33,179 nt of DNA from Erysipelotrichaceae bacterium (GTDB lineage Bacteria; Bacillota_I; Bacilli_A; RFN20; CAG-631), in assembly GCA_022767485.1 (NCBI GenBank), contig JALEMY010000063.1:1-33179 (forward strand). Direction: 5' to 3'. The notes under the pieces are model-generated. The model was not told where the DNA came from. It searched no databases and worked only from the letters and a program-made list of their open reading frames with translations. Below are positions 925-29,855 of the stretch, one piece after another. Each line of letters opens with the position of its first letter. Position 1 is the stretch's first letter. The position numbers and the translations under genes were made by a program.

Positions 925-2280
925 TTACTTTGAGATTATCAAGTATTCATCAGAAAATTCATCAGTTAAAAAAGGATAATGAGGATATAATACCTTCCTT
1001 ATATCTATTTTAAATAGTGTTTTGTTGGCAAATTGACCCGCATTAGTTTGAATAAAAATACATTCAGTATTTCTTTCATAATATCTAAAAAAGTAATTGA
1101 TAAATATACTATCAGAATTATACTCAATGATTCCTTTTAAATACTTTGAAATGTTAATCTTTTTAATTTTATATTCCTCATCGATGAATGTCAATTCTAT
1201 AACAATATCATCTAATACCCTTGGAATTTTTATAAAGATTGCTATAATATCATCGTTTTCAAAAAAATCGTAATTTATCTTTGAAACTTTTAATTTTTCA
1301 TATTTAAAATATCTAACAATTTTTTTACTAAATCTCCCATTATTATTAAAAGAATATTTATTGATAGTTAATAATTTTGGATAATATATCTCTAAATTAT
1401 CAAATTTACTTTTGTAAAAATTATTTAATCTTAAATTAAAATCATCAAACAATGATAAAGTAATCTTATCCCTTAATTTGAAAATTTTGTAATATAAATC
1501 TATCACTTTATCATAGACAGATAAATCAAAATATCTTTGAAATATATCATATATGTCACTTATTTTCTTAATTTTATTGAATAGCATATATAGTTCTACA
1601 ATTTGCTTTAATTGAAATTTGTGTCGTATTCCATATTCTGTATAATATGAAAAGTAACAATTATAAATTACAACAACAATCATTAAATCTATAGGTAGTG
1701 TTTTATAATTTGAAAAATATATACAGTTGTTAAAAAGATAACTATTCATTTCTTTGCTATATATACTTCTAAAATGCGTTTTTACTTCAATTGCCACCAA
1801 CAAATCATTAATATTCTTTTCAAATATCACGTCGTCAAAATTTGAATTTTCATAATAATTTATATCATTTGAAAATGTGTTTTTGCTTGATAAAAAAGGA
1901 TTTCTAAAACCATTTTTTACAGCAATCTCACAAAACTTTCTATAATCATCTTCGGCAACGATTATATCAATATCCTTATAAAATCGTGAATCATCATTGT
2001 ATAAGTAATATGATAATGTTCTCCCCTTAACAATACAATATTTTATTTTTTCTTCATTTAATTGATTCAAAAAATCTTTAATATATTCGTGTTTTTTTAT
2101 TGAAAAAGAGTTATATTTTTTTAATTTGTGTAGTAACCTTATATCAATTGACTTGCTTTTGTTTTTTTGGATGTTATATACAACGTCAATCAACTCATTA
2201 TCATCAGCATATGAATATAAATCACTAATACTTTTTTGCTTGTTTCCTAAGACATATTCTACAAAATCAATTGCATTCAT
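925..2280 (-). CDS. nucleotidyltransferase-like protein (NTP_transf_5-like), RiPP cluster accessory
   Basis: 451 aa; IKYCIVKGRTLSYYLYNDDSRFYKDIDIIV matches the KG...R..DiDi(i/v)V pattern of uncharacterised nucleotidyltransferases seen in RiPP clusters. Confidence 0.65.
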   Translation of the reverse strand: MNAIDFVEYVLGNKQKSISDLYSYADDNELIDVVYNIQKNKSKSIDIRLLHKLKKYNSFSIKKHEYIKDFLNQLNEEKIKYCIVKGRTLSYYLYNDDSRFYKDIDIIVAEDDYRKFCEIAVKNGFRNPFLSSKNTFSNDINYYENSNFDDVIFEKNINDLLVAIEVKTHFRSIYSKEMNSYLFNNCIYFSNYKTLPIDLMIVVVIYNCYFSYYTEYGIRHKFQLKQIVELYMLFNKIKKISDIYDIFQRYFDLSVYDKVIDLYYKIFKLRDKITLSLFDDFNLRLNNFYKSKFDNLEIYYPKLLTINKYSFNNNGRFSKKIVRYFKYEKLKVSKINYDFFENDDIIAIFIKIPRVLDDIVIELTFIDEEYKIKKINISKYLKGIIEYNSDSIFINYFFRYYERNTECIFIQTNAGQFANKTLFKIDIRKVLYPHYPFLTDEFSDEYLIISK

Positions 2281-2281
2281 G

Positions 2282-2737
2282 TCATAGCACTCTCCTTTTT
2301 ATTATTTTAATTTGCTTTATAATATTACTTGCTATTGTTATATAAAATTCATCATTCGTTGAGCTAGTTACACTTGAAAGTTTACCTACAAGAAATGACA
2401 ATTCAATTAATATTGAAATGATGTTTTTATCAATGTATTCATCAACTAATTTGTAAAAACCAATTATAGAATTAATATTTATTGACTTATCAAAATAATA
2501 TGAATTATCTCCTTTTGTAAAAAAGCATAAGTCAGATATACCTACAATTCTATGTAATCTATACTCATTGTTTGAATTCAAAATTAAAACTATATCTCCA
2601 ATTTTTGGAGAACTCTCATATTTGTAAATTGTTACAACATCACCATTATTTATTTCGGGTGACATACAGTCTCCATTTACTTTGATTTCAAACAACTTAT
2701 TTGATGTATTTTTCTGCTTGTTTTGTAAACATTTCAT
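2282..2737 (-). CDS. S24/S26-like (signal peptidase I-type) protein
   Basis: 151 aa; FEIKVNGDCMSPEINNGDVVTIYKY...GDIVLILNSNNEYRLHRIVGI, box B plus HRIVG motif; Cys occupies the usual Ser position. Confidence 0.7.
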   Translation of the reverse strand: MKCLQNKQKNTSNKLFEIKVNGDCMSPEINNGDVVTIYKYESSPKIGDIVLILNSNNEYRLHRIVGISDLCFFTKGDNSYYFDKSININSIIGFYKLVDEYIDKNIISILIELSFLVGKLSSVTSSTNDEFYITIASNIIKQIKIIKRRVL

Positions 2738-4472
2738 AATATTTCCCTTTATAATTCATTAATGACACGTGGTTCCCATTTTCGACAATTCGTCCATTTT
2801 CTATATATAATATTTCATCGAAATCTTTCACAGAAGATAATCTATGTGAAATCAAAATAATGGTAGTATCTTTAAAAGATGTCAAAATGAGTTTGTTCAA
2901 TTCATATTCAACAAGTGGGTCTAGTGAAGCAGCTGGTTCATCCAAAATAATCAGTCCATATTTCTTTGTAAACAACCTACATATTGATAATAATTGTTTT
3001 TGCCCACCAGATAGTTCCAAACCGCTTTTATCGAATTCTTTTGTAAGTTGTGTATTATACGAAATATTATTTTTATCGATCACTTTATTAAATCTTGTGA
3101 TTTCAAAAATCTTTGATATTGCGTCATCACTAACGTCAGCATAGAAACTCATATTTTCCCTAATCGTTAAAGCAAAATCTACATTTTCTTGAAATGCTGT
3201 ACCAACATTAATTCTATAATCATCCAAGTTAATTTCTTTTATATCTGTATCATTGATAAGTATTTTACCCTCATTCACATCATAAAGACGCAATAAAAGT
3301 TTTGTTAAAGTGGTCTTTCCAACTCCATTTTCACCAACAATAGCTATTTTTTTTCCCGCAGGAATATGGTAATTAATCTTATTAATAACAATCTGTCTAC
3401 CATCATAAGAAAAACTTATATTATTAAGTTTTATGTCGTATGGCTTACATAATTCATGTGATTCTTCATGAGGCATACTTTCAATATTAGATTTTGTATC
3501 AAAGAAACTTTTAATTTTTTTTCCATACATGCTAATTTGAGCAAAATTTGGAATCTCATTAACAAAAGATTGAAGATTGTTTTTAAAATTGTTAGAAGCA
3601 TAAAATAATGATGCTAACGTGCCAACAGTATAATAACCAGCTATTACTCCATTAGATAATAAAAGTAAAATGATTCCTACAAATAAAAGCCCATTTGACG
3701 AAATAAGAATTCCATTTAGAGCTAATTTATTTCTATAATCATTAGCTATATTAACTAAATCGTTCACATTATTATCAAAATGCTTTAATAATATATTACT
3801 ACTATTATTAGTTTTTATAGGAAATATATACTCTTTTAAATAAAAAAGACGGTTTATATACGACTGCCTTCGATTAACGAAAATACTTTTTTCATCCATT
3901 TCAAAATACATTTTACTATTCTTTCTACTTAATGCAACATTTATAAATACATTAATAATCGAAATTAGTATAATAATAGGGTTGATAACAGTTATGATAG
4001 ATAATAATGTAACAATCGTAATTATACTTGAAAAAGTACTCCAAAATAATCTGGCAGCACGATGTGACTGATTAACAAATTGATCAACAGTAAAGGAATA
4101 ATTATCATAAAAGTCTCTATCATCAAAATGACTTGTGTCTGTCATAGTTACTTTCTTAATTATTGATTTAGATAGTTTCCCTCTTACAATTTTCATTCTT
4201 TTTTCACCGATGTTTACTTCAATTAATTCACAAAATAAACATACAAGAAACTTTATACCAAGGAATATTAATAAGCCTATTAATATATAACTAATACTTT
4301 TATTATAAGTAATAGAATCAATAACAAATTGAAGCAAATATATATCTACTAAAGTGTTTATTGGATTTAGAAAGCATGATATCGTAACAAAAACAAAAAA
4401 CACTTTATCTTGTTTAAAAAATGTGTTTAATAAGAAAAAATAATTATTAATAATACTTTTTGTTTTCTTCAT
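2697..4472 (-). CDS. ABC transporter, fused membrane and ATP-binding domains (no C39 peptidase domain)
   Basis: 591 aa; N-terminal TM segments, Walker A GENGVGKTT, signature LSGGQKQL, Walker B LIILDEPAASLD. Confidence 0.9.
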   Translation of the reverse strand: MKKTKSIINNYFFLLNTFFKQDKVFFVFVTISCFLNPINTLVDIYLLQFVIDSITYNKSISYILIGLLIFLGIKFLVCLFCELIEVNIGEKRMKIVRGKLSKSIIKKVTMTDTSHFDDRDFYDNYSFTVDQFVNQSHRAARLFWSTFSSIITIVTLLSIITVINPIIILISIINVFINVALSRKNSKMYFEMDEKSIFVNRRQSYINRLFYLKEYIFPIKTNNSSNILLKHFDNNVNDLVNIANDYRNKLALNGILISSNGLLFVGIILLLLSNGVIAGYYTVGTLASLFYASNNFKNNLQSFVNEIPNFAQISMYGKKIKSFFDTKSNIESMPHEESHELCKPYDIKLNNISFSYDGRQIVINKINYHIPAGKKIAIVGENGVGKTTLTKLLLRLYDVNEGKILINDTDIKEINLDDYRINVGTAFQENVDFALTIRENMSFYADVSDDAISKIFEITRFNKVIDKNNISYNTQLTKEFDKSGLELSGGQKQLLSICRLFTKKYGLIILDEPAASLDPLVEYELNKLILTSFKDTTIILISHRLSSVKDFDEILYIENGRIVENGNHVSLMNYKGKYYEMFTKQAEKYIK

Positions 4473-5251
4473 AAGTTACCCTCTTTAATGTACTTATTAT
4501 ATATTTTTAAAAAGTTATCAAAGCATGAATAATTAATACTATAAGCTATTGAATTTGTAGCTATATTAATCAAATAACTGAACTTCTTTTTTTTATTACT
4601 TGAATATTTACAGTTACATAATAATTGTTCAAACACTTCTTTTTTATTACACTTTAAAACACTATTATTGTCTTTACTATAACATATAAAAATTATTAAT
4701 GGATATAAATCTATTTCATCAATAATATTTTCATTAAAATACAAATATCTTTTATATCCATATTCATCAACTGCAATATAATCTTTGTTTTTAATCATAG
4801 TTCTAGACTTTGATGGTAATCCCAACCCATAAGTTTTATTATTTATCAATATAATACAATCGTCATCAATAAAACGAGTAAAAAACCTTTCAATAATATT
4901 ATATGCTAATGTACTTTTACCAGATTTTCTCTTCCCAACTAACCAATACATTTTATTATCAAAAACTAGCGCGGATCCATGTATTGACAAATCAGCAATT
5001 GCTACACAAATATAATTTTCAATACTGTTTAATAATTCAAACTTCCAGTTAGAACAAAATGTATTTACTATTATATCAGCTTTATTGTCATAATTTGAAA
5101 TTCTAATTATATATTTTTTTAATGATTGAACATCACAATCAATCCATTTTTTGAATATAAAATTAAAATAATCATTTTCCTCACTACATGTAAAATCAAT
5201 AATAATTTGAACTAAAATAACTCCAAATTTTTTATAATATTTCTTAACCAT
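4469..5251 (-). CDS. HPr kinase/phosphorylase-like P-loop protein (RiPP cluster type)
   Basis: 260 aa; HGSALVFDNKMYWLVGKRKSGKSTLAYNI P-loop followed by FIDDDCIIL; overlaps the upstream PqqD-like reading frame stop by a few bases. Confidence 0.6.
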   Translation of the reverse strand: MVKKYYKKFGVILVQIIIDFTCSEENDYFNFIFKKWIDCDVQSLKKYIIRISNYDNKADIIVNTFCSNWKFELLNSIENYICVAIADLSIHGSALVFDNKMYWLVGKRKSGKSTLAYNIIERFFTRFIDDDCIILINNKTYGLGLPSKSRTMIKNKDYIAVDEYGYKRYLYFNENIIDEIDLYPLIIFICYSKDNNSVLKCNKKEVFEQLLCNCKYSSNKKKKFSYLINIATNSIAYSINYSCFDNFLKIYNKYIKEGNL

Positions 5252-5569
5252 TGTTTTCTATTATTATTATTTCATGCTTATCTAAATCATTCATTGTCTT
5301 AATGATATCGTATAACAACTCATTATCTTTTATATTAATATGAAATTTCTGTTTAATAGAATAAAACAATGATGAAAAATATACTTTTTCTATACTTTTT
5401 TAATGTTATTCATTATAAAATTATATATGTGCAATGCTGTTATATTTGCAACGATTAACTTCTCATTTTTTTCATTGTAGAAAAAACCTTCATTATCCAT
5501 TTCTTCAAAAGACACTTCATCATTTAATTTTACAATAATACTAATTTTATCTGAAATAATTAATTCCAT
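5244..5569 (-). pseudogene. PqqD-like RiPP recognition protein, reading frame broken at an A6 run (pseudogene, assembly error or recoded gene)
   Basis: Not in the ORF track. First frame: MELIISDKISIIVKLNDEVSFEEMDNEGFFYNEKNEKLIVANITALHIYNFIMNNIKKV* (5390-5569). The -1 frame continues SIEKVYFSSLFYSIKQKFHINIKDNELLYDIIKTMNDLDKHEIIIIENNG* to 5244. Region is 326 nt, one base short of 109 codons. Confidence 0.6.
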
Positions 5570-5570
5570 A

Positions 5571-6968
5571 TTATTTCCTTTCTTTTACGAACAACAATTC
5601 TGTTTCCTCGATTTCTTTTCTTTCTAGCTCAAAATTTATAAAACTATGATTTTCTAAAAGTTTATCATATACCATTCTCCAATATTTTTTTATCATTTCA
5701 CATTCATATTTTTCATTCTTAATAGATTCATCATCCAAGTTGTTTAACGGACATCCTGATCCACAATGGCTAAATGCAAAACACTTAATACAATCACGTC
5801 TTTTTTTTAAATATACATTAGCAATATAATCATTATATTCAACAAAATCAATTCTTCCATTTGATACTTTCCCTATCACTGGCGATTTATCACCTCCATC
5901 TAAACAAGTAATAATTTTTCCAGAAGGAAGTAGCCAAGGATGCAATCCATAGCTGGTGCCACAAATATAATCCACTTTATATGATTTGAATTTCATAAAA
6001 CTAAAATTCGTCTTTAAATTATTTTTCATTACATATTCCTGTAAATCTAAATATATTTTTGATATATCTATATTTTTATTGACTAAATGACTTTTAGTAG
6101 CTCTGCCTCTAGGCATAACACAACCAAATGACCATGATATGTAGTTTTTATACCGTTCATTTATAAATAGATACATGTCTTTGATATTTACAAAGTCATC
6201 CAACCAAATAGTCGATCTTATCTCATAATTAAAATTATATTTGTCAAAAAAGCATAGTGTTTTATCCACAATATCAAAAGAACCTTTACCCATAAATGTT
6301 TTTCTGTTTTTGTTTTGAAAAAAATTTGTTCCGTCAAATGAAATTAATACATAATCAACACTATCAATAATAAATTTTCTTTGAGATTCGTTTAAAATTC
6401 CATTGGTTGTCAATCCAATAGTAGCTTTTATTTTATATTTTTTTTCACAATTTCTAATGAAACATATCGTCTGTTGAAAAATATCCCATTTATATGTTGG
6501 TTCTCCTCCGCCTGCAAAGTAAAACTGAACCCCTTTATTCGTTTTGTTTACCATATTAAATATTTTTATTTTTTTAAAAAAATATAAAACATACGAACGA
6601 ATATTATTAATATCTATTGTATCTCCACTATCACAAGATGAAAATGCACAGTAATTACATCTTAACTGACATAGATCAGTTAAGCAAATGCCACATCTAT
6701 TAGTAAAAATATTATCAAAGTTAATTTTTTCAATATCATAGTTTTTATTAATGAACTCACTAACATCTTTATATTTTACATTTTTGTTATCCCAAAATAA
6801 AAAATTTTCGATATTATTTATTTTAATTTTCTCGATTTTGCCTTTAACAAAACATTCGTATTTTAGTAAAAATACATAATCTTCATTATATTGTATCATT
6901 TCCATATGTTTTCTTATATTAGTATATATCCAATCTCTGATATATACTTTTCCTTTCTTTGAGAACAT
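5571..6968 (-). CDS. radical SAM/SPASM RiPP maturase
   Basis: 465 aa; CQLRCNYC (CX3CX2C), GGGEPTYKW, and SPASM pattern C-X13-G-X4-C ... CIKCFAFSHCGSGC (CX2CX5CX3C) ... C. Confidence 0.9.
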   Translation of the reverse strand: MFSKKGKVYIRDWIYTNIRKHMEMIQYNEDYVFLLKYECFVKGKIEKIKINNIENFLFWDNKNVKYKDVSEFINKNYDIEKINFDNIFTNRCGICLTDLCQLRCNYCAFSSCDSGDTIDINNIRSYVLYFFKKIKIFNMVNKTNKGVQFYFAGGGEPTYKWDIFQQTICFIRNCEKKYKIKATIGLTTNGILNESQRKFIIDSVDYVLISFDGTNFFQNKNRKTFMGKGSFDIVDKTLCFFDKYNFNYEIRSTIWLDDFVNIKDMYLFINERYKNYISWSFGCVMPRGRATKSHLVNKNIDISKIYLDLQEYVMKNNLKTNFSFMKFKSYKVDYICGTSYGLHPWLLPSGKIITCLDGGDKSPVIGKVSNGRIDFVEYNDYIANVYLKKRRDCIKCFAFSHCGSGCPLNNLDDESIKNEKYECEMIKKYWRMVYDKLLENHSFINFELERKEIEETELLFVKERK

Positions 6969-7007
6969 TGTTGCAGTATTCGACGTAACACTATAATAAT
7001 TATGACA

Positions 7008-7070
7008 CTGTGGATTTGTCTCTATATGTTTACAGCTTTAATGACTGTTCAAAGGAGACTCCAACCACAG
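7008..7070 (-). promoter_or_regulatory. nested three-helix hairpin between precursor and maturase genes
   Basis: ctgtgg/ccacag (7008-7013/7065-7070), gtctc/gagac (7018-7022/7055-7059), acag/ctgt (7032-7035/7045-7048). Confidence 0.45.
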
Positions 7071-7146
7071 TTTTCATTTTATAGGGTTGATCAGTTAGAT
7101 AACGCTTGACGTTTTATTTGTGCAATAAGATTACTCCTTTAAAAAA

Positions 7147-7399
7147 CTCACTGCACGGAATTCTAATTAAGATGATTTAGTAGTACAGTAAGATGCATTC
7201 CCACAGCCAGATGAATTGGCAGTGCATCCTGTTGCTAATGTAGTACATTCAACTTTTCCATAAGTAGTACAAGTAGTTGATTCACCTGATGAAGCAAATG
7301 CCTCATACTCTTTAATTAAATTACCCTCATAAATTTTCATATCAGGTGTGATGTATTCATGCATTTTTTTCCCTCATTTATATATTTCTGTGCAGTGAG
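7147..7399. repeat. 10-bp perfect inverted repeats bracketing the precursor gene
   Basis: ctcactgcac (7147-7156) and gtgcagtgag (7390-7399). Confidence 0.7.
7167..7364 (-). CDS. Cys/Thr-rich RiPP precursor peptide
   Basis: 65 aa: acidic leader MHEYITPDMKIYEGNLIKEYEAFASSGE and core STTCTTYGKVECTTLATGCTANSSGCGNASYCTTKSS with five Cys; GAGGG ribosome-binding site upstream; first gene ahead of the radical SAM/SPASM gene. Confidence 0.8.
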   Translation of the reverse strand: MHEYITPDMKIYEGNLIKEYEAFASSGESTTCTTYGKVECTTLATGCTANSSGCGNASYCTTKSS

Positions 7400-8171: not shown

Positions 8172-10061
8172 CCCGTTTTTCGACAATAACACTATAAATT
8201 TTTCGACACAATTTTAAGAGTTTTTGATTTTAATATTATGAATAATATTAATTTTTCAATTAAACTCTTTTTTTATTTTATTTACTATGTTATAATTCTA
8301 GTGTTATCTAATGTTATACATAAGGAGATGTTTCTATGGCTTACTTTCTAAAGGTTTCTCATTTAAAAAAAGGTGATTATTTACAAATTTACGATTCATT
8401 TCATGATAAAGAAAAAAAGCATTCTGTTCACAAATCTTATAAAGCTTTAGGTTATCTTAATGATCTTATTGCTTCTGGTATTGATGACCCTATTTCTTTT
8501 TATAAAGCTGAAGTTGATAAGATGAATAAGAAAGTTAAAAAAGAAAAAGAAGAACTATCTATTAAAAAGATCGATAAATCTCCAATTAAAAATTTAGGTT
8601 ATTTTCTCATTAAAGGTATTTTTAATAAATTAGGTGTTAAATTTCATCTCGATTTACTAGATAAAATCGAAAATCAAAAGATTTCTACTCATGATTACTT
8701 ATTAAATATGGTATCTGCTAGAATCATTAATCCTTGTTCAAAGATTAAGACATATGAAGAAGTATTACCTACTTTATTTGAACCATATAACATTTCTAAA
8801 GATCAAATCTATGATAAGTTAGATTTTATTGGTGATAATTACTCTCGAATTCTTGAAGTGTTCAATGAATTCTATAACGAAAAATTCATTCGTAAAACTG
8901 GTAATGTATATTTTGACTGTACTAACTATTATTTTGAGATTGATACTGAAGATGATTTCAGAAGAAAAGGCCCTTCAAAAGAAAATAGAAAGGATCCTAT
9001 TATTGGAATGGGTTTATTGCTTGACGAAGAGCAAATCCCTTTAACTATGAAACTATATCCTGGTAATGAATCAGAAAAGCCTATTATGAGGCAATGTATT
9101 AATGAAATGAAGGATAGATATCATATGAATGGTAAAACCATTCAAGTTGCAGATAAGGGGTTGAACTGTGCTAGAAACATTTATGAAGCTTTAAAAAATG
9201 GAGATGGTTATATCTATTCTCAATCAGTTAAAAAGCTTGAAGAAAAAGAACAAAACTGGGTTTTATTAGATAATGGTTACATTGAAGTAAAAGATGACTT
9301 AGGAAACGTTGAATTTAAATATAAAAAATGTATCGACAAATTCACTTATAAGCTTGATAATTCTAAATTCACAGTTGAACAAATTAGAGTTGCTTCTTTT
9401 AACCCATCTTTAGCTAGAAAACAAAAAGCCGAAATACTTAAACAAGTTGATAAAATCCAATACCTTTCTTCTTCTCAAGCTAAAAGAAAAGAATATGGTG
9501 ATGCTTCTAAATATGTCACCTTTACTCCTGTTGATTCTAATGGTGAAGTTGATGATGAAACAATTGTCGTTGCTTCTTTAAACACTGAAAAAATAGAAAA
9601 AGATTTATCTTTATGTGGCTATAACTTAATTATCTCTTCTGAGTTAAAAATGAAGCCATTAGATATTTATCGTGTCTACCATCGCTTATGGAGAATTGAA
9701 GAAACTTTTAGAATCCTAAAATCAGAACTTGATGCTAGACCTGTTTATTGTCACAAGCAAAATACTATTTATGGTCATTTCCTGATTTGCTACTTATCTG
9801 TTTTCTTATTAAGAATTCTTCAAATTAAAAAATTTAAAGATAAAATCCATGCAAATCAAATCATTGATTTTATTAGGTCCTTCATAGTATTAAAAGAAAA
9901 AGATAGAATTACTAACCTTTCTTCTAAAGATCGTATTCTACCTCTTACTAATGCGTTAAATTTGAATATCAATAATTATGTTTTCAAACCTAAAGATGTT
10001 GAAAAACTCCTCAATCTAAAGATTTAACACTAGATTTTTATTTGTTTTGTCGAAAGTCAGG
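8172..10061 (+). mobile_element. IS1634-family insertion sequence, about 1890 bp
   Basis: Intact transposase; imperfect 15-bp ends CCCGTTTTTCGACAA / CCTGACTTTCGACAA; flanked by an 89-bp direct repeat. Confidence 0.88.
8336..10027 (+). CDS. IS1634-family transposase (DDE, IS4-superfamily)
   Basis: 563 aa; MAYFLKVSHLKKGDYLQIYDSFHDKEKKHSVHKSYKALGYLNDL start, VYFDCTNYYFEI, VADKGLNCARN, YRVYHRLWRIEETFRILKSELDARPVY. Confidence 0.92.
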   Translation: MAYFLKVSHLKKGDYLQIYDSFHDKEKKHSVHKSYKALGYLNDLIASGIDDPISFYKAEVDKMNKKVKKEKEELSIKKIDKSPIKNLGYFLIKGIFNKLGVKFHLDLLDKIENQKISTHDYLLNMVSARIINPCSKIKTYEEVLPTLFEPYNISKDQIYDKLDFIGDNYSRILEVFNEFYNEKFIRKTGNVYFDCTNYYFEIDTEDDFRRKGPSKENRKDPIIGMGLLLDEEQIPLTMKLYPGNESEKPIMRQCINEMKDRYHMNGKTIQVADKGLNCARNIYEALKNGDGYIYSQSVKKLEEKEQNWVLLDNGYIEVKDDLGNVEFKYKKCIDKFTYKLDNSKFTVEQIRVASFNPSLARKQKAEILKQVDKIQYLSSSQAKRKEYGDASKYVTFTPVDSNGEVDDETIVVASLNTEKIEKDLSLCGYNLIISSELKMKPLDIYRVYHRLWRIEETFRILKSELDARPVYCHKQNTIYGHFLICYLSVFLLRILQIKKFKDKIHANQIIDFIRSFIVLKEKDRITNLSSKDRILPLTNALNLNINNYVFKPKDVEKLLNLKI

Positions 10062-12530: not shown

Positions 12531-13315
12531 ACTCGTCCACCTACACTTTCATCAACTTCCTTGTGATTACTTGTAACTCGCATAATAATAAATAAAATTA
12601 CAAGTAAAACAATTGAAGCAGCAGAACCATAATTCCACTGTGCAGCATTGAAATATTGGTTGATTAAATTACCCATAATTTGTAATTTTTGATTAGAAAA
12701 TACATCGGTAATAACATAAGAACACATCGTAGGCATAAAGACCATTGTCGAAGCGCTAATAATACCAGGCATTGTTAAAGGAATAATAGTTTTTACAAAT
12801 ACCGTAGATGGTTTTGCTCCTAAATCTCTTGCAGCTTCAATAACTGTTTTATCAAGTTTTAACATAGTTGAATATAATGGTAATATTACAAATGGCAAAT
12901 AATCGTACACCATTGCAATAAATACACAAATATACATTCCAGTAGTATTTGAAGCATTGATATTAAATAAGTCCAACAATTCCTTTGTGGCATTGCTTCT
13001 TAACACGAAGTTAATCCACATTGGCATAACAAAGAAATATACAAATACTTTTGATTTATTGACTTGTCTATCAGCAAGTAAATAAGCAAGAGGATATCCT
13101 ATTAATAAACACACAATTGTCGTGATAATAGCGATAAATAAACTTGTGAATAAAGTGTTAACATTATCTGAAGTAAATACAGTTTTGTAGTTATTAATTG
13201 TCAAATTCCAATCAGGTGTTGTAATGGAATACACGATAATTAATACTAATGGAGTTACAACAAATGACAATAAGAATAAAGCATAGGGAATAGATAAATG
13301 TTTTCTATTTAGCAT
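12524..13315 (-). CDS. potB: spermidine/putrescine ABC transporter permease PotB
   Basis: 263 aa; [29 protein letters not shown] loop; overlaps potC and potA ends. Confidence 0.9.
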
Positions 13316-14789
13316 TATTTGATACCTTAAGTTTCATTTTAATCTTATCTGAATTAATAATTACACCAACACGATCATTAATGTTATATGTATATTCAGT
13401 GTCTAAAATATAATCTTCCTCATTGTCAAATGTACGGATGATAACTTGATAGTGATCTCCTTTATAAATAGATGAAATAACTTCCCCATAAACCATACCA
13501 TCTTCTTCATTATCTGTTAATGTTATATCATTAAATCCCACATTAACAACAACATCAACATCTGTTAAATCAATTTGTCTTCCATCAGATGTAATCAAAT
13601 AACCATTTTCATCAAGATGTGATCCTTCATATAATTGTGTTACATCACACATAAATGTTCCATCACCAAAGCATACTTGGTTGTTTTTATCAATATAGCC
13701 TTCAAATACATTTGTTGTAACTTCTTTTTTCATAATATGAATTAAATCAGGATCGATGCTAATACCTACTTCTTCACCAACATTAAATTTGTCAGTTGAT
13801 TGAACTTCAATTTCTGCTTTACCTTTTTTTAATATATATTGATAATGTATGCCTTTAAAGATTCGACTTTCAATCTTAGCGTTTAATAAACCATTATCTT
13901 TAGGCAAAATATCGATATCTTCAGGACGTACAACAACATCAACTTTTTCATTTACAGGGAACTCATCAACGCAAGTAAAAGTAGTGTTTAAAAAACGAAC
14001 ACGTTTGCTTCCCATTACAGTACCAGTATAAATGTTTGATTCTCCAATAAAATCGGCAACAAAGGCATTTGCTGGTTCATCATATATTTGATTTGGACGA
14101 CCGATTTGTTGAATAACACCATCGTTCATAACAACGATTGTGTCAGACATTGTCAAAGCTTCTTCTTGATCATGAGTTACATAAATAAATGTGATCCCAA
14201 GTTTTTTATGCATTTCTTTAAGCTCGATTTGCATATCTTTTCTCATTTTTAAATCTAAAGCTCCTAAAGGTTCATCTAAAAGAAGAATTTCAGGTTCCAT
14301 AACGATAGCACGTGCGATTGCTACACGTTGTTGTTGACCACCAGAAAGAGTGGCAATATCACGATTTTCAAAATCCTCCAAATCGACAATTTTTAGTGCC
14401 TTCATAACTTTTTCATCTATTTCTTCAGGTGTTAGATTTCTAAGTTTTCCACTTCTTTTTTCATTTGGAACTTTTTTTAATTTAAGTCCGAAAGCAACAT
14501 TATCATAAACATCTAAATGAGGAAATAGTGCATAGCGTTGAAAAACAGTATTAATAGGTCTTTTGTGAGGTGGTAATTTAGTAATATCTTTACCATTTAA
14601 TAATATAGTTCCTGAAGTTGGAATTTCAAAGCCAGCAACCATTCTAAGTGTAGTTGATTTACCACAACCAGAAGGACCCAAAATTGTTACAAATTCACCC
14701 TTATTTACATATAAATTTAAATTTTCAATGACAACATTATTGCCATATGACTTACTAACATTAATAATTTCAATACTTTTTTGTGCCAT
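13305..14789 (-). CDS. potA: spermidine/putrescine ABC transporter ATPase PotA, extended C-terminus
   Basis: 494 aa; [48 protein letters not shown]-like C-terminal region appears duplicated. Confidence 0.92.
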
Positions 14790-15511: not shown

Positions 15512-18265
15512 TTAACTATTGATTACATCAATAGGTTTAATACCCTTTACATTTGACAATGAAATGATTAATGATAAGGCAAAAATAGCAAAGGTTGCAA
15601 ACACTATTAGCATCGCAATCAATAAATTAAAATTGAATATTGCAAAATAGAAAGTAAAGAATGCTGAAGTTATTAACTTATTAACTAATAAGCCTATAAA
15701 ATAATAAGAACTAACGCCAAATAAGGTTGCAAACACAGCTATTAAAAGGGTTTCTAACATATATATTTTATAAATATCTTTAATGCTTGCTCCTAATGCC
15801 TTTAATATGCCAATTTGTTTCTTATTATCTTTTATTGAAGATGAAATAAAAGAATAAAATAGCAATGCAACAATCACAAGCCATATAACTGTAACGATAT
15901 TAATCACTGTGGAATATTTATTTATAAGTGAAACAAAATCGATATAATGTTTGACAAAATAATTTGCAATCATAAGATTATGATCATATATATCATTCAC
16001 TAATAAAACGTAGTTTTCATTTTTATCTGTTCTTAGTAAAACTTGATTTATTCGATAATAATTATTCGATAAAATATCGAAAACTTCATCGGTTACATAA
16101 ACGCTTTTTCTTGTTGTATCTTCAACATTGTTGTATATTACGCCAACAATTTCAAGATCTTTTATCGACTGGTAAACTTCCCCGTTATTGCCCCTAGCAT
16201 TTTGAATATTTAATATTCTATGTAATGCATTATATTCTTTAGCAAGTTGTCTAAATGTAGTTGTATCGAAGGTATTTATTTTCACAAGGTTATTAAAAAA
16301 TGTTCTACCAACAAATACTTGATTTGGTTTTAATGAAGCTATGTTTTCTTCAAATGTTTTTTCTTCCATTTTTTCATCAACATAATAATACTTAGCTGTC
16401 TTATTTGTATAATCGAATTTTGAAAGCGAATATACATGAGAAGAGGCCACTTGAAAATTCATCGAATCTGAAGTTATCGAAGTGGTTTTAAAGTAATGAT
16501 AAGTATCCTTGTATTTTTCCATAATAGCTGGTTTTACAAGTAACCTTGAGAAAATACTTTTTGATAATTCCTCATATTCTCGATATAAAGTAGCATCTAA
16601 GGAGTTGTATAATGTGGCGTATTTTTGATACATATCTTGATCATCATAACCATATATACCTATAATTGGAAATGAAAATAAAGCATGCACAGGCGTTTTT
16701 ACCTTAAATTTATATCCAATCAAGTCTTCAAGTTTACTAACATCGCTTTTATTTGCATTCGTACCATAATCTTGAATATAATTTACAATAACTTGTCCAA
16801 TAACTGATGAAATATATATTCCTTCTTCATAGTCTTGCTCAGTAATATTTTCTTTTTCATAAATGATTTTAAACTTACTATCACCATAGCCATATTTTTC
16901 AATATCATCGCATACTAGCATTCCATATAATGCTCTATTAGCAAATAAACGATCGTTTTTCAATTGATTATCAATATCAGTATTGCTAGTTGTAAATGTA
17001 AAATCTTGATTATATGCATATGCCAAATCGTTTCCTAATGATTGTAGATACTCTATATCACTATTAGCTAAAGCATAATTATCACTTGATACAGCAAAAC
17101 TTGAAGAAACTTTAATAAAAGATCCATTGTCTTCTTTTAATGTTGCCGAAATAGCACTAGATTGCGAATAATTAGTAAAATTAAAGGCACATCCAGTAAT
17201 AATAACAGATAATATTGCAAGCAAAATCGTCAAAGTCATTCTAAACTTTTTCCTTTTTAAATTAGAAAGAGAAAATTTTAATGCTTTGATAAAAGGTAGC
17301 TTAGAAGTCACAATTTCATCATTTTTCTTGGTTTTATCATCCACATAGTAAAATGGTTTAAATGCTCCTTGTTTATTGTCATCATCAATGACTTCTTTAA
17401 CATTAGGGAATAAAGACATTGCTCTTTTTTTATTTTGTTCGATTAATAAATAATAATCTTGTCTTTTTGATGATATACTAGCATTTAGACTTTCAATATT
17501 TTCATCATCTACTTCGTGTCCTTTAGGAACGATTAATAAGTTTGAAGACACCATGGAAACTTTGTCTTTAATCGTGTCATTTTCATCTTTTTTTAATAAA
17601 TCTTTCAAGACAAAACCATCGCGAATTTCAATGATACGATCACCATATTCATATGCTAATTCTTTATTATGCGTAACGATAATAACTAGACGGCTTTTTG
17701 ATAATTCTTGTAATATTTTTATTATAGCATCGCTTGTTTCACTATCTAATGAACCTGTAGGCTCATCAGCTAAAATTATCTTAGGATCTTTAATTAATGC
17801 TCTTGCGATAGATACTCTTTGTTTTTGTCCCCCTGTAAGTTCATTTATATTGCGATTTCTTATTGAAGATATTTCCATTTTTTCAAGAAGAGGTTGCACC
17901 AAGTTTTCGTCTTTTCTCGATTGTAAATCAAGTGCTAGCGATACATTATCATATACCGACAAATTATCGATTAAATAAAAATCTTGAAAAACAAAACCAA
18001 CACAAGAATTACGATAATAATCATAATCTTTATCCTTAAAACTTAAAAAACTTTTGCCATCGAAAATAATATCTCCTCTATCAAAACTATCAATACCAGC
18101 AATAAGGTTTAAAAGAGTTGATTTACCAGAACCTGATTTACCTAAAATAAAAACAAGTCCTTTTTCATTAAATTTCAATGAGACATTTTCTAAAGCACGA
18201 TGAGTAACGCCATTTTTTGATGAATAAGTTTTATAAATGTTTTTTAACTCTAACATTGAAGTCAC
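15512..18265 (-). CDS. ABC transporter ATP-binding domain fused to FtsX-type permease
   Basis: 917 aa; GKSGSGKSTLLNLIAG, LTGGQKQRVSIARALI, LADEPTGSLD; C-terminal FtsX-like segment KQIGILKALGASIKDIYKIYMLETLLI. Confidence 0.9.
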   Translation of the reverse strand: MTSMLELKNIYKTYSSKNGVTHRALENVSLKFNEKGLVFILGKSGSGKSTLLNLIAGIDSFDRGDIIFDGKSFLSFKDKDYDYYRNSCVGFVFQDFYLIDNLSVYDNVSLALDLQSRKDENLVQPLLEKMEISSIRNRNINELTGGQKQRVSIARALIKDPKIILADEPTGSLDSETSDAIIKILQELSKSRLVIIVTHNKELAYEYGDRIIEIRDGFVLKDLLKKDENDTIKDKVSMVSSNLLIVPKGHEVDDENIESLNASISSKRQDYYLLIEQNKKRAMSLFPNVKEVIDDDNKQGAFKPFYYVDDKTKKNDEIVTSKLPFIKALKFSLSNLKRKKFRMTLTILLAILSVIITGCAFNFTNYSQSSAISATLKEDNGSFIKVSSSFAVSSDNYALANSDIEYLQSLGNDLAYAYNQDFTFTTSNTDIDNQLKNDRLFANRALYGMLVCDDIEKYGYGDSKFKIIYEKENITEQDYEEGIYISSVIGQVIVNYIQDYGTNANKSDVSKLEDLIGYKFKVKTPVHALFSFPIIGIYGYDDQDMYQKYATLYNSLDATLYREYEELSKSIFSRLLVKPAIMEKYKDTYHYFKTTSITSDSMNFQVASSHVYSLSKFDYTNKTAKYYYVDEKMEEKTFEENIASLKPNQVFVGRTFFNNLVKINTFDTTTFRQLAKEYNALHRILNIQNARGNNGEVYQSIKDLEIVGVIYNNVEDTTRKSVYVTDEVFDILSNNYYRINQVLLRTDKNENYVLLVNDIYDHNLMIANYFVKHYIDFVSLINKYSTVINIVTVIWLVIVALLFYSFISSSIKDNKKQIGILKALGASIKDIYKIYMLETLLIAVFATLFGVSSYYFIGLLVNKLITSAFFTFYFAIFNFNLLIAMLIVFATFAIFALSLIISLSNVKGIKPIDVINS

Positions 18266-18275
18266 CTTCCTTGCT

Positions 18276-21005
18276 TTAATTATTTCTTATCGCATCAATC
18301 GGTTTCATTTTAGCAACAGAAATAACAGGTAAAATTGTTGTTACAATGAAAAATAAAGATACGATAGCAATATACAATATTACATGAATAAAACGAATAG
18401 TAATAATATTTAATCCTATGTCAACATTGCCCAAAGATTGATTTACAATCGATACAGCTAAAAAGATAATTATGATTGATAGTAAAGAAACAAATAAAGC
18501 TAAAATACCTTCTTCTACAACAAAAATTGATATTATATCTTTTCCTCTAGCGCCTGTTGCTCTTAAAATTCCGATTTCTTTTTTTCGTTTCTTAACTGTC
18601 GATGAAACATAATTGATCATAAATAATATAGCAAACAAGAAAATGACACCTGAAGCAATTAAGGAAATGGATTGAATTGATTTTATATCCAAATTACTTG
18701 TTGGCACATTTCCATCGATATTTAAAACACGATATCCATTATCAAATAGTTTTTGAATCATCTTTGCATTGCTTTTTGTACTTTTAGATAAAGTGAATAA
18801 TATCTGATTATAGTTGTAAGTTGTATTATTTAACTTATCAGTTAATTCATCGGAAAAAAGAACACATGGTCCATCTTCTTGTAAAAAATTTGTAACTGCC
18901 ACAACTTTTATAGCACTATTATATATAGTTGAATCAACTTGAGATGAACTAACCATTTTATTAATAATAGTGTTTTGATTAATGCTTTCAATAGCCATAT
19001 CGATAAGTTCTTGATAATTTAATCCATTAAAACGTAGAAAATCATATGAGATAATCACTTCATTACCATTTAATTTTTCTGGAATGTTTCCCCATATAAC
19101 ACCACTATTTTTATCGATATTATTTTTATATTGAGAAAAACTTGTAAATGATTCCATCATTGAACTTTCAAGATCTATATATGTAAACGATTCAGATACT
19201 TCGTTTTCTTCAACGTCATATGAATATAAAGGAATTTTATTCATAGTTATTTGAAATAATGGCTTAGTATAATATGATGACTGTTCAGTTAAAAATTTAG
19301 CATAAAAGCCACTTGGAGCGAATATTTTAGCATAATAATAAGACTTTAAAGCATTTAAAGATGAAGATTGTGATGATTGCTCATTATTATATGTTTCAGA
19401 TAATAATAATGGTAAAAAATCTTCATAGTTCGTTTTAAAAATACCAACTATTTTATATTCTATTTCATTAATCAATATATAAGAATCAATCTGTTCTTGC
19501 AATGAGCGCGGACGAACTATTCCATAATTTCCTAAGTTATCTTTTCCAAGATAGCCTGTTCTTCTAAGTTCAAAAGCGGCATAATCTGAGATGATAATCT
19601 CTTTGTTTTCTAAAGAATTATTATCAAACTTATCTTTTCCACAAATCAACGATAAATTTAAATTATCGATTCCTTCACATTCAACTATTCCTCTAAAATA
19701 TCTCATTTCAAATGGAGAACCTTCAAAACTAATACTTGATGTATATGGAATATTGATACTTCTACTCAATTGATATTGATGATTATCATCAATATTCTTT
19801 AATGTTTCTATCGATTGCTTATCAAAATATTCTATTGCGCCATTATTACTTTTTTCAATAATAGCTAGTTTGCTTTCATTATAATTTAATGTATTAGCAA
19901 TAATAGATGCATCATTAATTGTAAAAAACAAAGAAGAAAATCCTAATAAAGAAAAAGCAATAAGTGTAAAAACAAGTAAAAAAGATATTTTGCCTTTATT
20001 TAACGAAAATTGATTAAGTGCCATTTTTAAACAATCTTTAAATGAAATAGCAGCTTTTTGTTTTTTATGTCTCGTATCTTTTTCCTTTTTTATTTCTTGT
20101 AATTTATTACCACAAGAAATAAATTTTTTTGATAAATCATCCTTTTTAAAAATATCATCATATACTTCAGGATATGATAAACTAACAAGTTCAGGAGAAG
20201 AAAGCAAACATACATAATTCGTTTCATCTTTTTTCAATAATTGATTTATCATTTCTTTGTTAACAATTTCACTGCCACTAGAAATCTTTATAATATTGTC
20301 GCTGATTTTTTCATTTTCATCAACTTTATATGAAGGTGAAGTTAGCAAATGATCACATAAAACTCCATCATTTATCATGATAATTTCATCGCCAAAATAA
20401 TGTGCCATTTCACTATCATGTGTGGCAACAATTACCAATTTGTCTTTAGACAATGTTTTTAAAGAACTCATCAATTCATATCCCGTTTTAGAATCAAGTG
20501 CTCCTGTTGGCTCATCTGCTAAAATGATATTTGGATTTTTAATAAGTGCACGAGCAATAGCTATTCTTTGCTTTTGCCCTCCAGATAGTTCTTTTGGTGA
20601 GCGATAGCCTAATCCTTCAAGATTAACCATTTTTAAAACTTCATCAATGCTCGTTTCATCAAGGCCTTTTGATTGAACTTTTAATGATATGGCAATATTT
20701 TCTTTTACCGTTACATCTTCAAGCAAATTAAATTCTTGAAAAATAAAGCCAACATGATAATTTCGATAAGCGTCAAAATCATGCGATGAAAAATCTTTTG
20801 TTGAGCGATTGTTAATTATTATTTCACCGCAATCCATCTTATCAAGACCACCTAAAATGTTTAATAATGTTGATTTACCAGCGCCACTTCTACCAAGGAT
20901 AAAAACAAGACCTTTATCAGGAAAGTCAACACTAAAATCATTTAAAGCGGTAATTGTATTAACACCATTTTTATATGTTTTAGTGATATTTCTAATTTGA
21001 AGCAT
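18276..21005 (-). CDS. ABC transporter ATP-binding domain fused to FtsX-type permease (paralog of the adjacent gene)
   Basis: 909 aa; GRSGAGKSTLLNILGG, LSGGQKQRIAIARALI, LADEPTGALD; KEIGILRATGARGKDIISIFVVEEGIL. Confidence 0.9.
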   Translation of the reverse strand: MLQIRNITKTYKNGVNTITALNDFSVDFPDKGLVFILGRSGAGKSTLLNILGGLDKMDCGEIIINNRSTKDFSSHDFDAYRNYHVGFIFQEFNLLEDVTVKENIAISLKVQSKGLDETSIDEVLKMVNLEGLGYRSPKELSGGQKQRIAIARALIKNPNIILADEPTGALDSKTGYELMSSLKTLSKDKLVIVATHDSEMAHYFGDEIIMINDGVLCDHLLTSPSYKVDENEKISDNIIKISSGSEIVNKEMINQLLKKDETNYVCLLSSPELVSLSYPEVYDDIFKKDDLSKKFISCGNKLQEIKKEKDTRHKKQKAAISFKDCLKMALNQFSLNKGKISFLLVFTLIAFSLLGFSSLFFTINDASIIANTLNYNESKLAIIEKSNNGAIEYFDKQSIETLKNIDDNHQYQLSRSINIPYTSSISFEGSPFEMRYFRGIVECEGIDNLNLSLICGKDKFDNNSLENKEIIISDYAAFELRRTGYLGKDNLGNYGIVRPRSLQEQIDSYILINEIEYKIVGIFKTNYEDFLPLLLSETYNNEQSSQSSSLNALKSYYYAKIFAPSGFYAKFLTEQSSYYTKPLFQITMNKIPLYSYDVEENEVSESFTYIDLESSMMESFTSFSQYKNNIDKNSGVIWGNIPEKLNGNEVIISYDFLRFNGLNYQELIDMAIESINQNTIINKMVSSSQVDSTIYNSAIKVVAVTNFLQEDGPCVLFSDELTDKLNNTTYNYNQILFTLSKSTKSNAKMIQKLFDNGYRVLNIDGNVPTSNLDIKSIQSISLIASGVIFLFAILFMINYVSSTVKKRKKEIGILRATGARGKDIISIFVVEEGILALFVSLLSIIIIFLAVSIVNQSLGNVDIGLNIITIRFIHVILYIAIVSLFFIVTTILPVISVAKMKPIDAIRNN

Positions 21006-27784: not shown

Positions 27785-29782
27785 TTAATTATTTGGCAAA
27801 GCACCTTCATAAGAATTTCTATAACTCTTATCTAACACATTATATTTACCTGCTCCATACATATTATCAACACATTCTTGTAAGAACAACCAAATAGTTT
27901 CTGTGTTACTGTTGATTTCATCTTCAATATCAGTTAAATGCGCTTGAATTGTTGTCACATATGAATCAGTTCCTAAAGTGCCGGTTTGCGTCTCAGAATC
28001 GATAAAATATGAATCTCTATTACGCCAGCGATATAACACGTCCTTCTTTGTTTCTTCACCTGTATCAGTTTCATCAGCAACTTCAATTGGTTCATTGTTA
28101 TAATTCAAACATGTAATATAATCATCGCCAAAGCCATCAAGCATATAAATACTATCAAGCATTGTTACTAAACCATAAGTAATATTAGAAAAGTATTCTA
28201 CATCAGCATCTTTTATTCCATTTTCATCTGGAATAACAAACAAGTCATTACAATCAAACCATTGTTTCATTTGATATGTCCAATTATCGATATAATCAAT
28301 AGCAGGATCTAAAGAAGGATTATCGGTTTGAAATGAAAATTTACTACCGCGTTTTGTTAATGGCATTGTCAAATCACCTTTATAATCAGTACCATTGAAA
28401 TTATACGTTACTTCAGCTCGTCCTTTAATAGCTCTAGGATCAAGGCCCATAAACATTGAAAAATAAGCAGCAACATCCATTTCAAGTTGAGCATTTTCAC
28501 TGCATGGTTTACCTATTGGACATTGATTACCTACAATGACTCCTCCAATTCCAACACCAGAATATAATGGAGAATCTTCATCAACTCTAGGATAAGGTAA
28601 ATAATCTACTTTAACACTTGGATTATGTTGCTTTGTAAAGTTGGAAATGTTTGATATTGCCCATGGTGCTTCTGCATAAAATGTACAATATTGATCGGAA
28701 ATAAAATTTTCATTTGATTTCCAAATAGCAGCATTTGGAAAGGCATCTTTCTTAGTTTTTCCAACAGAAGTCATATCATACATATATACACAATTTTGAG
28801 AAATCTGTTGTTCGTAGTTTAACAACTTTGAAATTGTTGTTTGAACTTGAGGACTACTAATATCTACAGAACTTTCTCTTATAAATTGACTAAATACTGT
28901 AGGCATTGAATAAGAAAGCAAATTATCTACTACTTTTGATAATCCAGCATGCGTATCTGTTGTTGAACGATCAATAGCATTAACAAAACTTTCCCATGTA
29001 AAGTTATCAACCCATTGTTTGTATGCTTCACTATTTTGTCCTAATGATTCATCAATTACATCAGATACAATCGTATATTCTTCTATAGAATTTAAATTTA
29101 CAAAAATTCCCCAAGGGTCTGCAAGTATTGGAAAACCAGCTTGAAAACCGCCAAAATTAAATCTAGATAAAAAGTACTCATTGAATTGTTGAAAATATTC
29201 ACTGTCTTTATAACGATTTAAATCATAACATAAACCATCAGCTAATTCATCAACAACATGTCTCGTTCCCCACATTAATTGTGGTAAGTGACCATTCATT
29301 CCAATGTAATCTTTCAATGTGTAATCATAATCAGCTATAGAACAATATCTCAAATTAATTTTTACGTTTGGGGCTAGTTTTTTAAAAGCACTTGCAGCTC
29401 CAAAAAACTTTGCCATTTCAATTGATGTAACATCATCTTTATGATAGCGATATATTGTATCATTTGGATCAGGACTATAATTACCAATATCAGTGATATA
29501 GCCATCTTGCCCTTCAATATAAGTTAAAAAGTCTATTGAAACAGAGGCATTTAAGACATCATCTGGTATTAATTTTGTATAATCTTCTTCAATTGATCCT
29601 TTATATGATTCATCAGACATAGATTCATAAATATTTCCACTTGAAGATTCATCTGATGGTGTGTTTGATAAATCATCATTTGATGGAGTATTTGATAAAT
29701 CGCTAATTGTATTATCACCACATCCACTTATAGTTAATGAAAGCATAGATATTAGTGAAAGCATTAATATATTTTTTTTCAT
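27785..29782 (-). CDS. large solute-binding-type lipoprotein (paralog 1)
   Basis: 665 aa; MKKNILMLSLISMLSLTISGC lipobox; extensive identity to the next gene; extracellular solute-binding-like composition. Confidence 0.65.
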   Translation of the reverse strand: MKKNILMLSLISMLSLTISGCGDNTISDLSNTPSNDDLSNTPSDESSSGNIYESMSDESYKGSIEEDYTKLIPDDVLNASVSIDFLTYIEGQDGYITDIGNYSPDPNDTIYRYHKDDVTSIEMAKFFGAASAFKKLAPNVKINLRYCSIADYDYTLKDYIGMNGHLPQLMWGTRHVVDELADGLCYDLNRYKDSEYFQQFNEYFLSRFNFGGFQAGFPILADPWGIFVNLNSIEEYTIVSDVIDESLGQNSEAYKQWVDNFTWESFVNAIDRSTTDTHAGLSKVVDNLLSYSMPTVFSQFIRESSVDISSPQVQTTISKLLNYEQQISQNCVYMYDMTSVGKTKKDAFPNAAIWKSNENFISDQYCTFYAEAPWAISNISNFTKQHNPSVKVDYLPYPRVDEDSPLYSGVGIGGVIVGNQCPIGKPCSENAQLEMDVAAYFSMFMGLDPRAIKGRAEVTYNFNGTDYKGDLTMPLTKRGSKFSFQTDNPSLDPAIDYIDNWTYQMKQWFDCNDLFVIPDENGIKDADVEYFSNITYGLVTMLDSIYMLDGFGDDYITCLNYNNEPIEVADETDTGEETKKDVLYRWRNRDSYFIDSETQTGTLGTDSYVTTIQAHLTDIEDEINSNTETIWLFLQECVDNMYGAGKYNVLDKSYRNSYEGALPNN

Positions 29783-29814
29783 ATAATATTTTTCTCCTTT
29801 ATATTAATGTTAAA

Positions 29815-29841
29815 AAGGAAGCAACAAATCGATGCTTCCTT
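29815..29841 (-). terminator. terminator between the two lipoprotein paralogs
   Basis: Minus strand AAGGAAGCA-tcgatttgt-TGCTTCCTTTTT. Confidence 0.8.
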
Positions 29842-29855
29842 AATTAAATGTTTAA

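Follow-up and report, generated by a model that had tools for sequence, protein, structure and literature searches.

A gene cluster for a ribosomally synthesised and post-translationally modified peptide (RiPP) almost certainly lies on contig JALEMY010000063.1, which was analysed over its complete 33,179 bases (the window) and belongs to a metagenome-assembled genome (MAG) that is 81% complete (G000; assembly GCA_022767485.1). Seven genes, all on the minus strand, encode in order a five-Cys precursor, a radical S-adenosylmethionine (SAM)/SPASM maturase, a PqqD-like protein split into two open reading frames (ORFs), an HprK-like kinase, an ABC exporter, an S24/S26-type peptidase-like protein and an NTP_transf_5 nucleotidyltransferase-like protein. 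A complete cluster with the same gene order is found in an uncultured Bacilli MAG (G258, contig CANQVC010000016.1; L034, here the second locus).

The cluster represents a real, rare and unnamed RiPP family. A radical SAM RiPP is a known kind of system; new are the lasso-type genes for C-terminal tailoring and the Cys variant of a peptidase that stand beside it. There is about an even chance that the product is a peptide cross-linked by the radical SAM enzyme and phosphorylated, possibly also glycosylated, at its C-terminus, with a leader that would be cut by the Cys-variant peptidase before export.

A conserved precursor at two loci

The precursor gene (7167-7364, minus strand) encodes 65 residues. 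Its leader comprises approximately residues 1-28 (7281-7364), while residues 29-65 (7170-7280) form the core, with five Cys and the C-terminal block NSSGCGNASYCTTKSS. The precursor of the second locus, MENYVTPDMAVYEGNLIREYEAYAASVSCSSGAITCSSQAVSCQTGAVGSQSCLANSAGCGAASYCTTRSS (L034:13268-13483), is 63% identical and contains one more Cys than the shared five. Both have the leader motif YxTPDMxxYEGNLIxEYEA and the tail NS[SA]GCGxASYCTT[KR]SS, and both end in Ser-Ser.

The precursor is better conserved between the loci than the maturase, which is 42% identical. Codons differ at 18 of the 40 identical residues, and for the pair the nonsynonymous (dN) and synonymous (dS) rates are 0.30 and 1.14, a dN/dS of 0.27: the precursor is under purifying selection across both loci. 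Together with the second complete cluster, which shares the gene order, this shows that the cluster is more than a chance arrangement.

An earlier note on this DNA, made from the letters alone, had read the precursor, the radical SAM enzyme, the exporter, the S24-like protein and the nucleotidyltransferase on one strand as a RiPP cluster that has a SPASM maturase and whose precursor could be assigned to no named family. The ORFs and the Pfam and NCBIfam matches bear out this layout. Neither precursor reaches the cut-off of any Pfam or NCBIfam family; the maturase falls far under the cut-off of every curated maturase model. The gene set and the second syntenic locus agree with the note's reading.

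Another of its observations, that the Cys stand mostly next to Thr, does not hold as a feature of the family. Five or more Thr-Cys contacts, as in the window core, occur in 9% of core shuffles, and the core of the second locus has only two contacts (28% of shuffles). The adjacency is thus not conserved and shows no excess over composition, and it was rejected as a signature.

In both loci the precursor ORF is bracketed by inverted repeats, the sequences of which are unrelated. In the window the arms lie at 7381-7399 upstream and 7147-7165 downstream and match exactly over 10 bases; in the second locus they are perfect over 13 bases (13234-13246 and 13519-13531). Of 226 genes taken as controls, 2.7% have repeats of at least 10 bases and none has one of 13. 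In the mRNA the repeats could pair into a stem that encloses the precursor.

The ABC exporter (2697-4472, minus strand; PF00005), a fusion of permease and ATPase, was used as a query against 395 genomes of the class. Orthologues of 47-49% identity are present in the genome of the second locus and in two further genomes (G309 and G404), while the next relatives are 32% identical. Over about 1,800 genome searches at order, class and phylum level, some genomes being repeated, only the two complete clusters were found. This rarity is an impression and not a measurement, because the scans of genome contigs used few and narrow peptide patterns: the first set gave no match and the second only the contig of the second locus. 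Searching plasmids and phages with the precursor (tblastn) gave chance matches only. A role in anti-phage defence was considered and dropped, as there was no PADLOC match.

State of the cluster in the window

A frameshift in an A-run splits the PqqD-like gene (5244-5569, minus strand) into ORFs 5390-5569 and 5244-5369, confirming a hint in the earlier note that it was damaged. The first ORF is 42% identical over 55 residues to the intact 106-residue protein of the second locus, and the second ORF matches the C-terminus of that protein. The assignment to PqqD is supported by gene position and by profile comparison (hhalign to PqqD relatives, E 8e-5, though the probability is only 61%), but the Pfam cut-off is missed.

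Further, the relic of an IS110 insertion sequence lies between precursor and maturase (6945-7119, minus strand). It is the non-coding end of the element (the bridge-RNA region), without a transposase. It is 82% identical to a region of the same genome (G000:C113) that stands directly upstream of an IS110 transposase, and other copies occur in G000:C58 and in two other genera (G022 and G021); five IS110 transposase matches are found elsewhere in G000. The relic ends in a stretch resembling the IS110 ribosome-binding site and extends over the initial codons of the maturase gene as annotated (5571-6968, minus strand), which the earlier note had missed. The real start of the maturase is therefore probably M22, at position 6905, and the gene may no longer have a ribosome-binding site of its own. 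The 203-nucleotide spacer is structured (z -2.9), but it was discarded as an RNA of the cluster since it holds this IS110 end.

These observations raise the question of whether the cluster in the window is a relic in decay, so that the peptide was formerly made but is not made now in this genome. In addition to the frameshift and the probable replacement of the ribosome-binding site, an IS1634-family transposase gene abuts the cluster upstream (8336-10027, plus strand; NF033559, 307 bits), outside the proposed pathway. Decayed copies occur in relatives: G404 (L035) has an intact ABC gene, but its S24 and nucleotidyltransferase genes are truncated and only a fragment of the radical SAM gene is left, and on the G309 contig (L033) the ABC gene is the only cluster gene. 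In a sister species of the same genus (G001) the cluster is absent from the site between tRNAs and pot-type transporter genes. On the other side, the remaining genes have uninterrupted frames with their catalytic residues in place, assembly errors can produce frameshifts in a MAG, PqqD could act in trans, and the IS110 end may itself provide a ribosome-binding site. We consider decay almost as probable as not, and our confidence that the window cluster functions in this genome likewise falls a little short of even.

The location of the cluster, between tRNA and pot-type transporter genes, is a variable spot. In the sister species it holds a MACPF-domain protein and a 931-residue fused ABC-FtsX protein (L113, G001:C33, 357-4687). 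In the window tRNA-Cys and tRNA-Arg lie downstream of the cluster (254-411); Rfam gave these two tRNAs and no other match.

Peptidase, tailoring genes and maturase

The S24/S26-type protein (2282-2737, minus strand; PF00717) carries the conserved HR and GD motifs of signal peptidase I and of LexA and UmuD (families S26 and S24). A model built from 14 sequences (predicted local distance difference test score, pLDDT, 76) has SpsB, LexA, UmuD and SipA as its top matches, with weak E-values of 1.4e-3 and up. The predicted fold is thus that of these families, but the nucleophilic Ser is replaced by Cys in both loci: the motif reads G-D-C24-M in the window and G-E-C-M in the second locus, and His62-Arg is kept. 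The residue before Met is Ser in 24 of 24 other relatives in the class where it can be read, and a wider alignment likewise has Ser in all 12 other proteins. The earlier note had overlooked this change, as it had the conserved Ser at the C-terminus of the precursor. The residues are most simply read as a Cys-His dyad, and whether such a variant would remove the leader appears evenly balanced.

Alternatively, the protein may be a non-proteolytic chaperone, with the leader removed by other means. SipA of Streptococcus pyogenes, a signal-peptidase homologue, is required for pilus polymerisation, and both the loss of the catalytic Ser and the presence of SipA among the fold matches are in line with such a role. 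However, Cys is a competent nucleophile, it is found in both loci, and the His is kept, so we regard a chaperone as doubtful, though a serious alternative.

The HprK-like kinase (4469-5251, minus strand) is 34% identical to that of the second locus. The identity proposed in the earlier note is supported by profile comparison (hhalign E 1e-12) and by gene position, although the protein stays below the Pfam cut-off. Among plasmids it matches one protein only, the kinase encoded in a paeninodin lasso cluster of Priestia. When relatives in the class and the Priestia kinase are aligned, a His, the P-loop GKST and an Asp-Asp pair are invariant, and the window protein keeps H91, K112 and D129/D130. 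In the second locus the gene is split by a frameshift near an A-run, and the same His-Lys-Asp-Asp set is kept in frame before it. The nucleotidyltransferase-like protein (925-2280, minus strand) matches NTP_transf_5 (PF14907) with 41 bits in the window and 54 bits in the second locus, the two being 34% identical over 112 residues.

Lasso-peptide kinases need the His-Lys-Asp-Asp set and phosphorylate the linear precursor at its C-terminal Ser, while PsmN, a nucleotidyltransferase-type protein, is responsible for the later addition of hexose to the phosphate (PMC9266682, PMC8498205). Both loci combine a kinase with this set and a precursor that ends in Ser. Because the lasso-type residues are kept, PsmN provides a precedent and the precursors end in Ser-Ser, a C-terminal phospho- or phosphoglyco-serine is predicted. 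By analogy with lasso peptides, phosphorylation of the C-terminal Ser by the kinase is slightly favoured, and glycosylation of the C-terminus would possibly occur as well. The earlier note had listed both genes as generic RiPP accessories; they are present, but the evidence points to the more specific role known from paeninodin and pseudomycoidin. These lasso systems resemble the cluster in the kinase residues, the nucleotidyltransferase-type protein, PqqD, the ABC exporter and the Ser-ending precursor. In contrast to the Priestia cluster, neither an Asn-synthetase-like lasso cyclase nor a B2 protease is present here, and a radical SAM enzyme and the S24/S26-type protein are found instead. The literature search, in which coverage of subscription papers was thin, gave no paper that joins such tailoring genes with a radical SAM RiPP.

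The same five families (PqqD, HprK-like, S24/S26, ABC and NTP_transf_5) are clustered in many genomes of the class without a radical SAM gene (L084, L085, L087, L090, L093), and some of these copies adjoin polysaccharide-type genes. In L084, L087, L090 and L093 no precursor was recognised and S24 keeps the catalytic Ser. The kinase, nucleotidyltransferase, S24 and ABC genes could accordingly belong to a separate, widespread envelope or polysaccharide module that leaves the peptide unmodified. This is fairly unlikely: the two Cys-rich loci both encode them just behind precursor and maturase and on the same strand, with spacers that are short or absent, they are divergent orthologues of their own with a locus-specific Ser-to-Cys change, and the precursors end in Ser. 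Fusions of HprK with S24 (L083) and of SPASM with S24 (L086) also occur in the class, and therefore these proteins are tied to one process.

The HprK-S24/S26 fusion gene (G070:C29, 7132-8586) adjoins PqqD and ABC genes. The SPASM-S24 fusion is part of a separate RiPP-like cluster (G327:C46, 1800-8366) with NTP_transf_5, ABC and HprK-like genes and a second radical SAM gene, possibly B12-binding, where no precursor was recognised. In a further locus (L097, G345:C3, 9548-12402) PqqD, radical SAM, HprK-like and S24 genes are followed by a 42-residue ORF, MIQEEKKEYQKPVIQVVKFTLEEGIAESTMSGEGPNLICLDA, a possible precursor.

The maturase shows the general marks of a radical SAM RiPP enzyme: a CX3CX2C motif (C100/C104/C107), all seven SPASM Cys (C336, C355, C393, C396, C402, C406, C423), an adjoining precursor and a leader-binding protein, the link to PqqD being the weaker one. 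None of the three radical SAM or seven SPASM Cys differs between the loci. PF04055 is matched with 37.5 bits, and the SPASM model TIGR04085 with 26.9 bits against a cut-off of 27. An AlphaFold model from two sequences had a pLDDT of 47 and was not used.

The nearest NCBIfam model is PapB (NF047865), with 85.3 bits in the window and 107.3 in the second locus against a cut-off of 340. The SCIFF model (TIGR03974) gives 62 and 71 bits against 425, and an anaerobic sulfatase maturase model is also among the nearest, below its cut-off. The sactisynthase models score lower: StsB 34.6 bits in the window and 30.1 in the second locus (cut-off 625), and RumMC 43.6 in the second locus (cut-off 720). In general RumMC, StsB and CcpM-type models, with cut-offs of 500-720 bits, give 30-83. 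Among PDB sequences the nearest is that of the SCIFF maturase CteB (5wgg, E 4.5e-14). Filing the enzyme under PapB, SCIFF, CcpM, RumMC or StsB was rejected, as every score is far below the cut-off.

The ranthipeptide systems of PapB (freyrasin) and SCIFF/CteB nevertheless share with the cluster a SPASM maturase that adjoins a small Cys-rich precursor. They differ in that here a separate PqqD-like gene and kinase, nucleotidyltransferase and S24 genes are present. The CX3D repeats of PapB do not occur, because neither core contains Asp, and in contrast to SCIFF the window precursor has five Cys and lies outside the NCBIfam families at cut-off. Sactipeptides and related peptides (RumMC, StsB, CcpM-type) are alike in their Cys-rich core and SPASM maturase but not in their model scores.

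Judged from these relatives, cross-linking of Cys by the maturase is likely, and sulfur cross-links in the core are plausible. Thioether formation is a reasonable inference because the nearest families (PapB, SCIFF, 5wgg) point there. SCIFF maturases join Cys to Thr (PMC8326336). Of the Cys-to-Thr/Asn/Ala thioethers proposed in the earlier note, the sulfur cross-link is plausible on family grounds, but the argument from neighbouring Thr fails the composition test and Cys-to-Thr thioethers are a conjecture.

The maturase might instead make C-C or C-O links, epimerise, or carry out a formylglycine-type oxidation, with the Cys engaged in disulfides or metal binding. The low-scoring similarity is indeed spread over thioether, sulfatase and cyclophane maturases. 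But the best models are of thioether-forming enzymes, the five Cys are conserved core positions, and for cyclophanes the cores lack Trp and Phe and contain just one or two Tyr, which makes other chemistry unlikely. A lanthipeptide-like product is highly improbable, as the core is rich in Ser, Thr and Cys but no dehydratase or cyclase is found among the cluster genes scanned.

The proposed pathway and its setting

We infer the biochemical steps and the role of the product as follows. The PqqD-like protein would bind the conserved leader and present the core, in which the radical SAM/SPASM enzyme would cross-link the five conserved Cys, most likely through sulfur-to-carbon thioethers. The kinase would then phosphorylate the C-terminal Ser, and the NTP_transf_5 protein would put a sugar or nucleotide on the phosphate. 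The S24/S26-type protein would remove the leader using Cys24-His62 in place of Ser-His, and the ABC exporter would secrete the product, probably a peptide against competitors or for signalling.

Several points weigh against this pathway. Only two complete loci were found, which gives little comparative power, and each has a frameshift in or near an A-run (PqqD in the window, HprK in the second locus). No maturase cut-off is reached and the bond type cannot be read from the sequence. Further, Cys in place of Ser could mean a non-proteolytic protein, and given the maturase-free copies of the module the kinase and nucleotidyltransferase could act on another substrate. That a single peptide carries radical-SAM sulfur cross-links together with a lasso-type C-terminal phospho- or phosphoglyco-serine, and loses its leader to a Cys-nucleophile variant of the signal-peptidase/LexA fold, is possible but on balance unlikely; the combination was not found in the literature searched.

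The surroundings of both loci contain other gene groups. The window has two neighbouring fused ATPase-FtsX permeases of 917 and 909 residues (15512-21005) and two neighbouring, highly similar large lipoproteins of 665 and 668 residues (27785-31862), apparently a tandem duplication. The contig of the second locus (L034 1636-6251) also encodes two secreted proteins of 250-273 residues together with two FtsX-like permeases and an ABC ATPase, perhaps for immunity or as another bacteriocin system.

The claims on peptidase and kinase are directly testable through the locus-specific Ser-to-Cys change and the conserved C-terminal Ser, as each gene is intact in one locus or the other. Should the Cys-His form of the signal-peptidase/LexA fold be active, it would be unusual among proteases. 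If the proposal is true, C-terminal tailoring by the lasso-type kinase and nucleotidyltransferase would be a portable module that also decorates radical SAM RiPPs, and a precursor ending in Ser would provide a substrate rule for the many maturase-free copies of this module.

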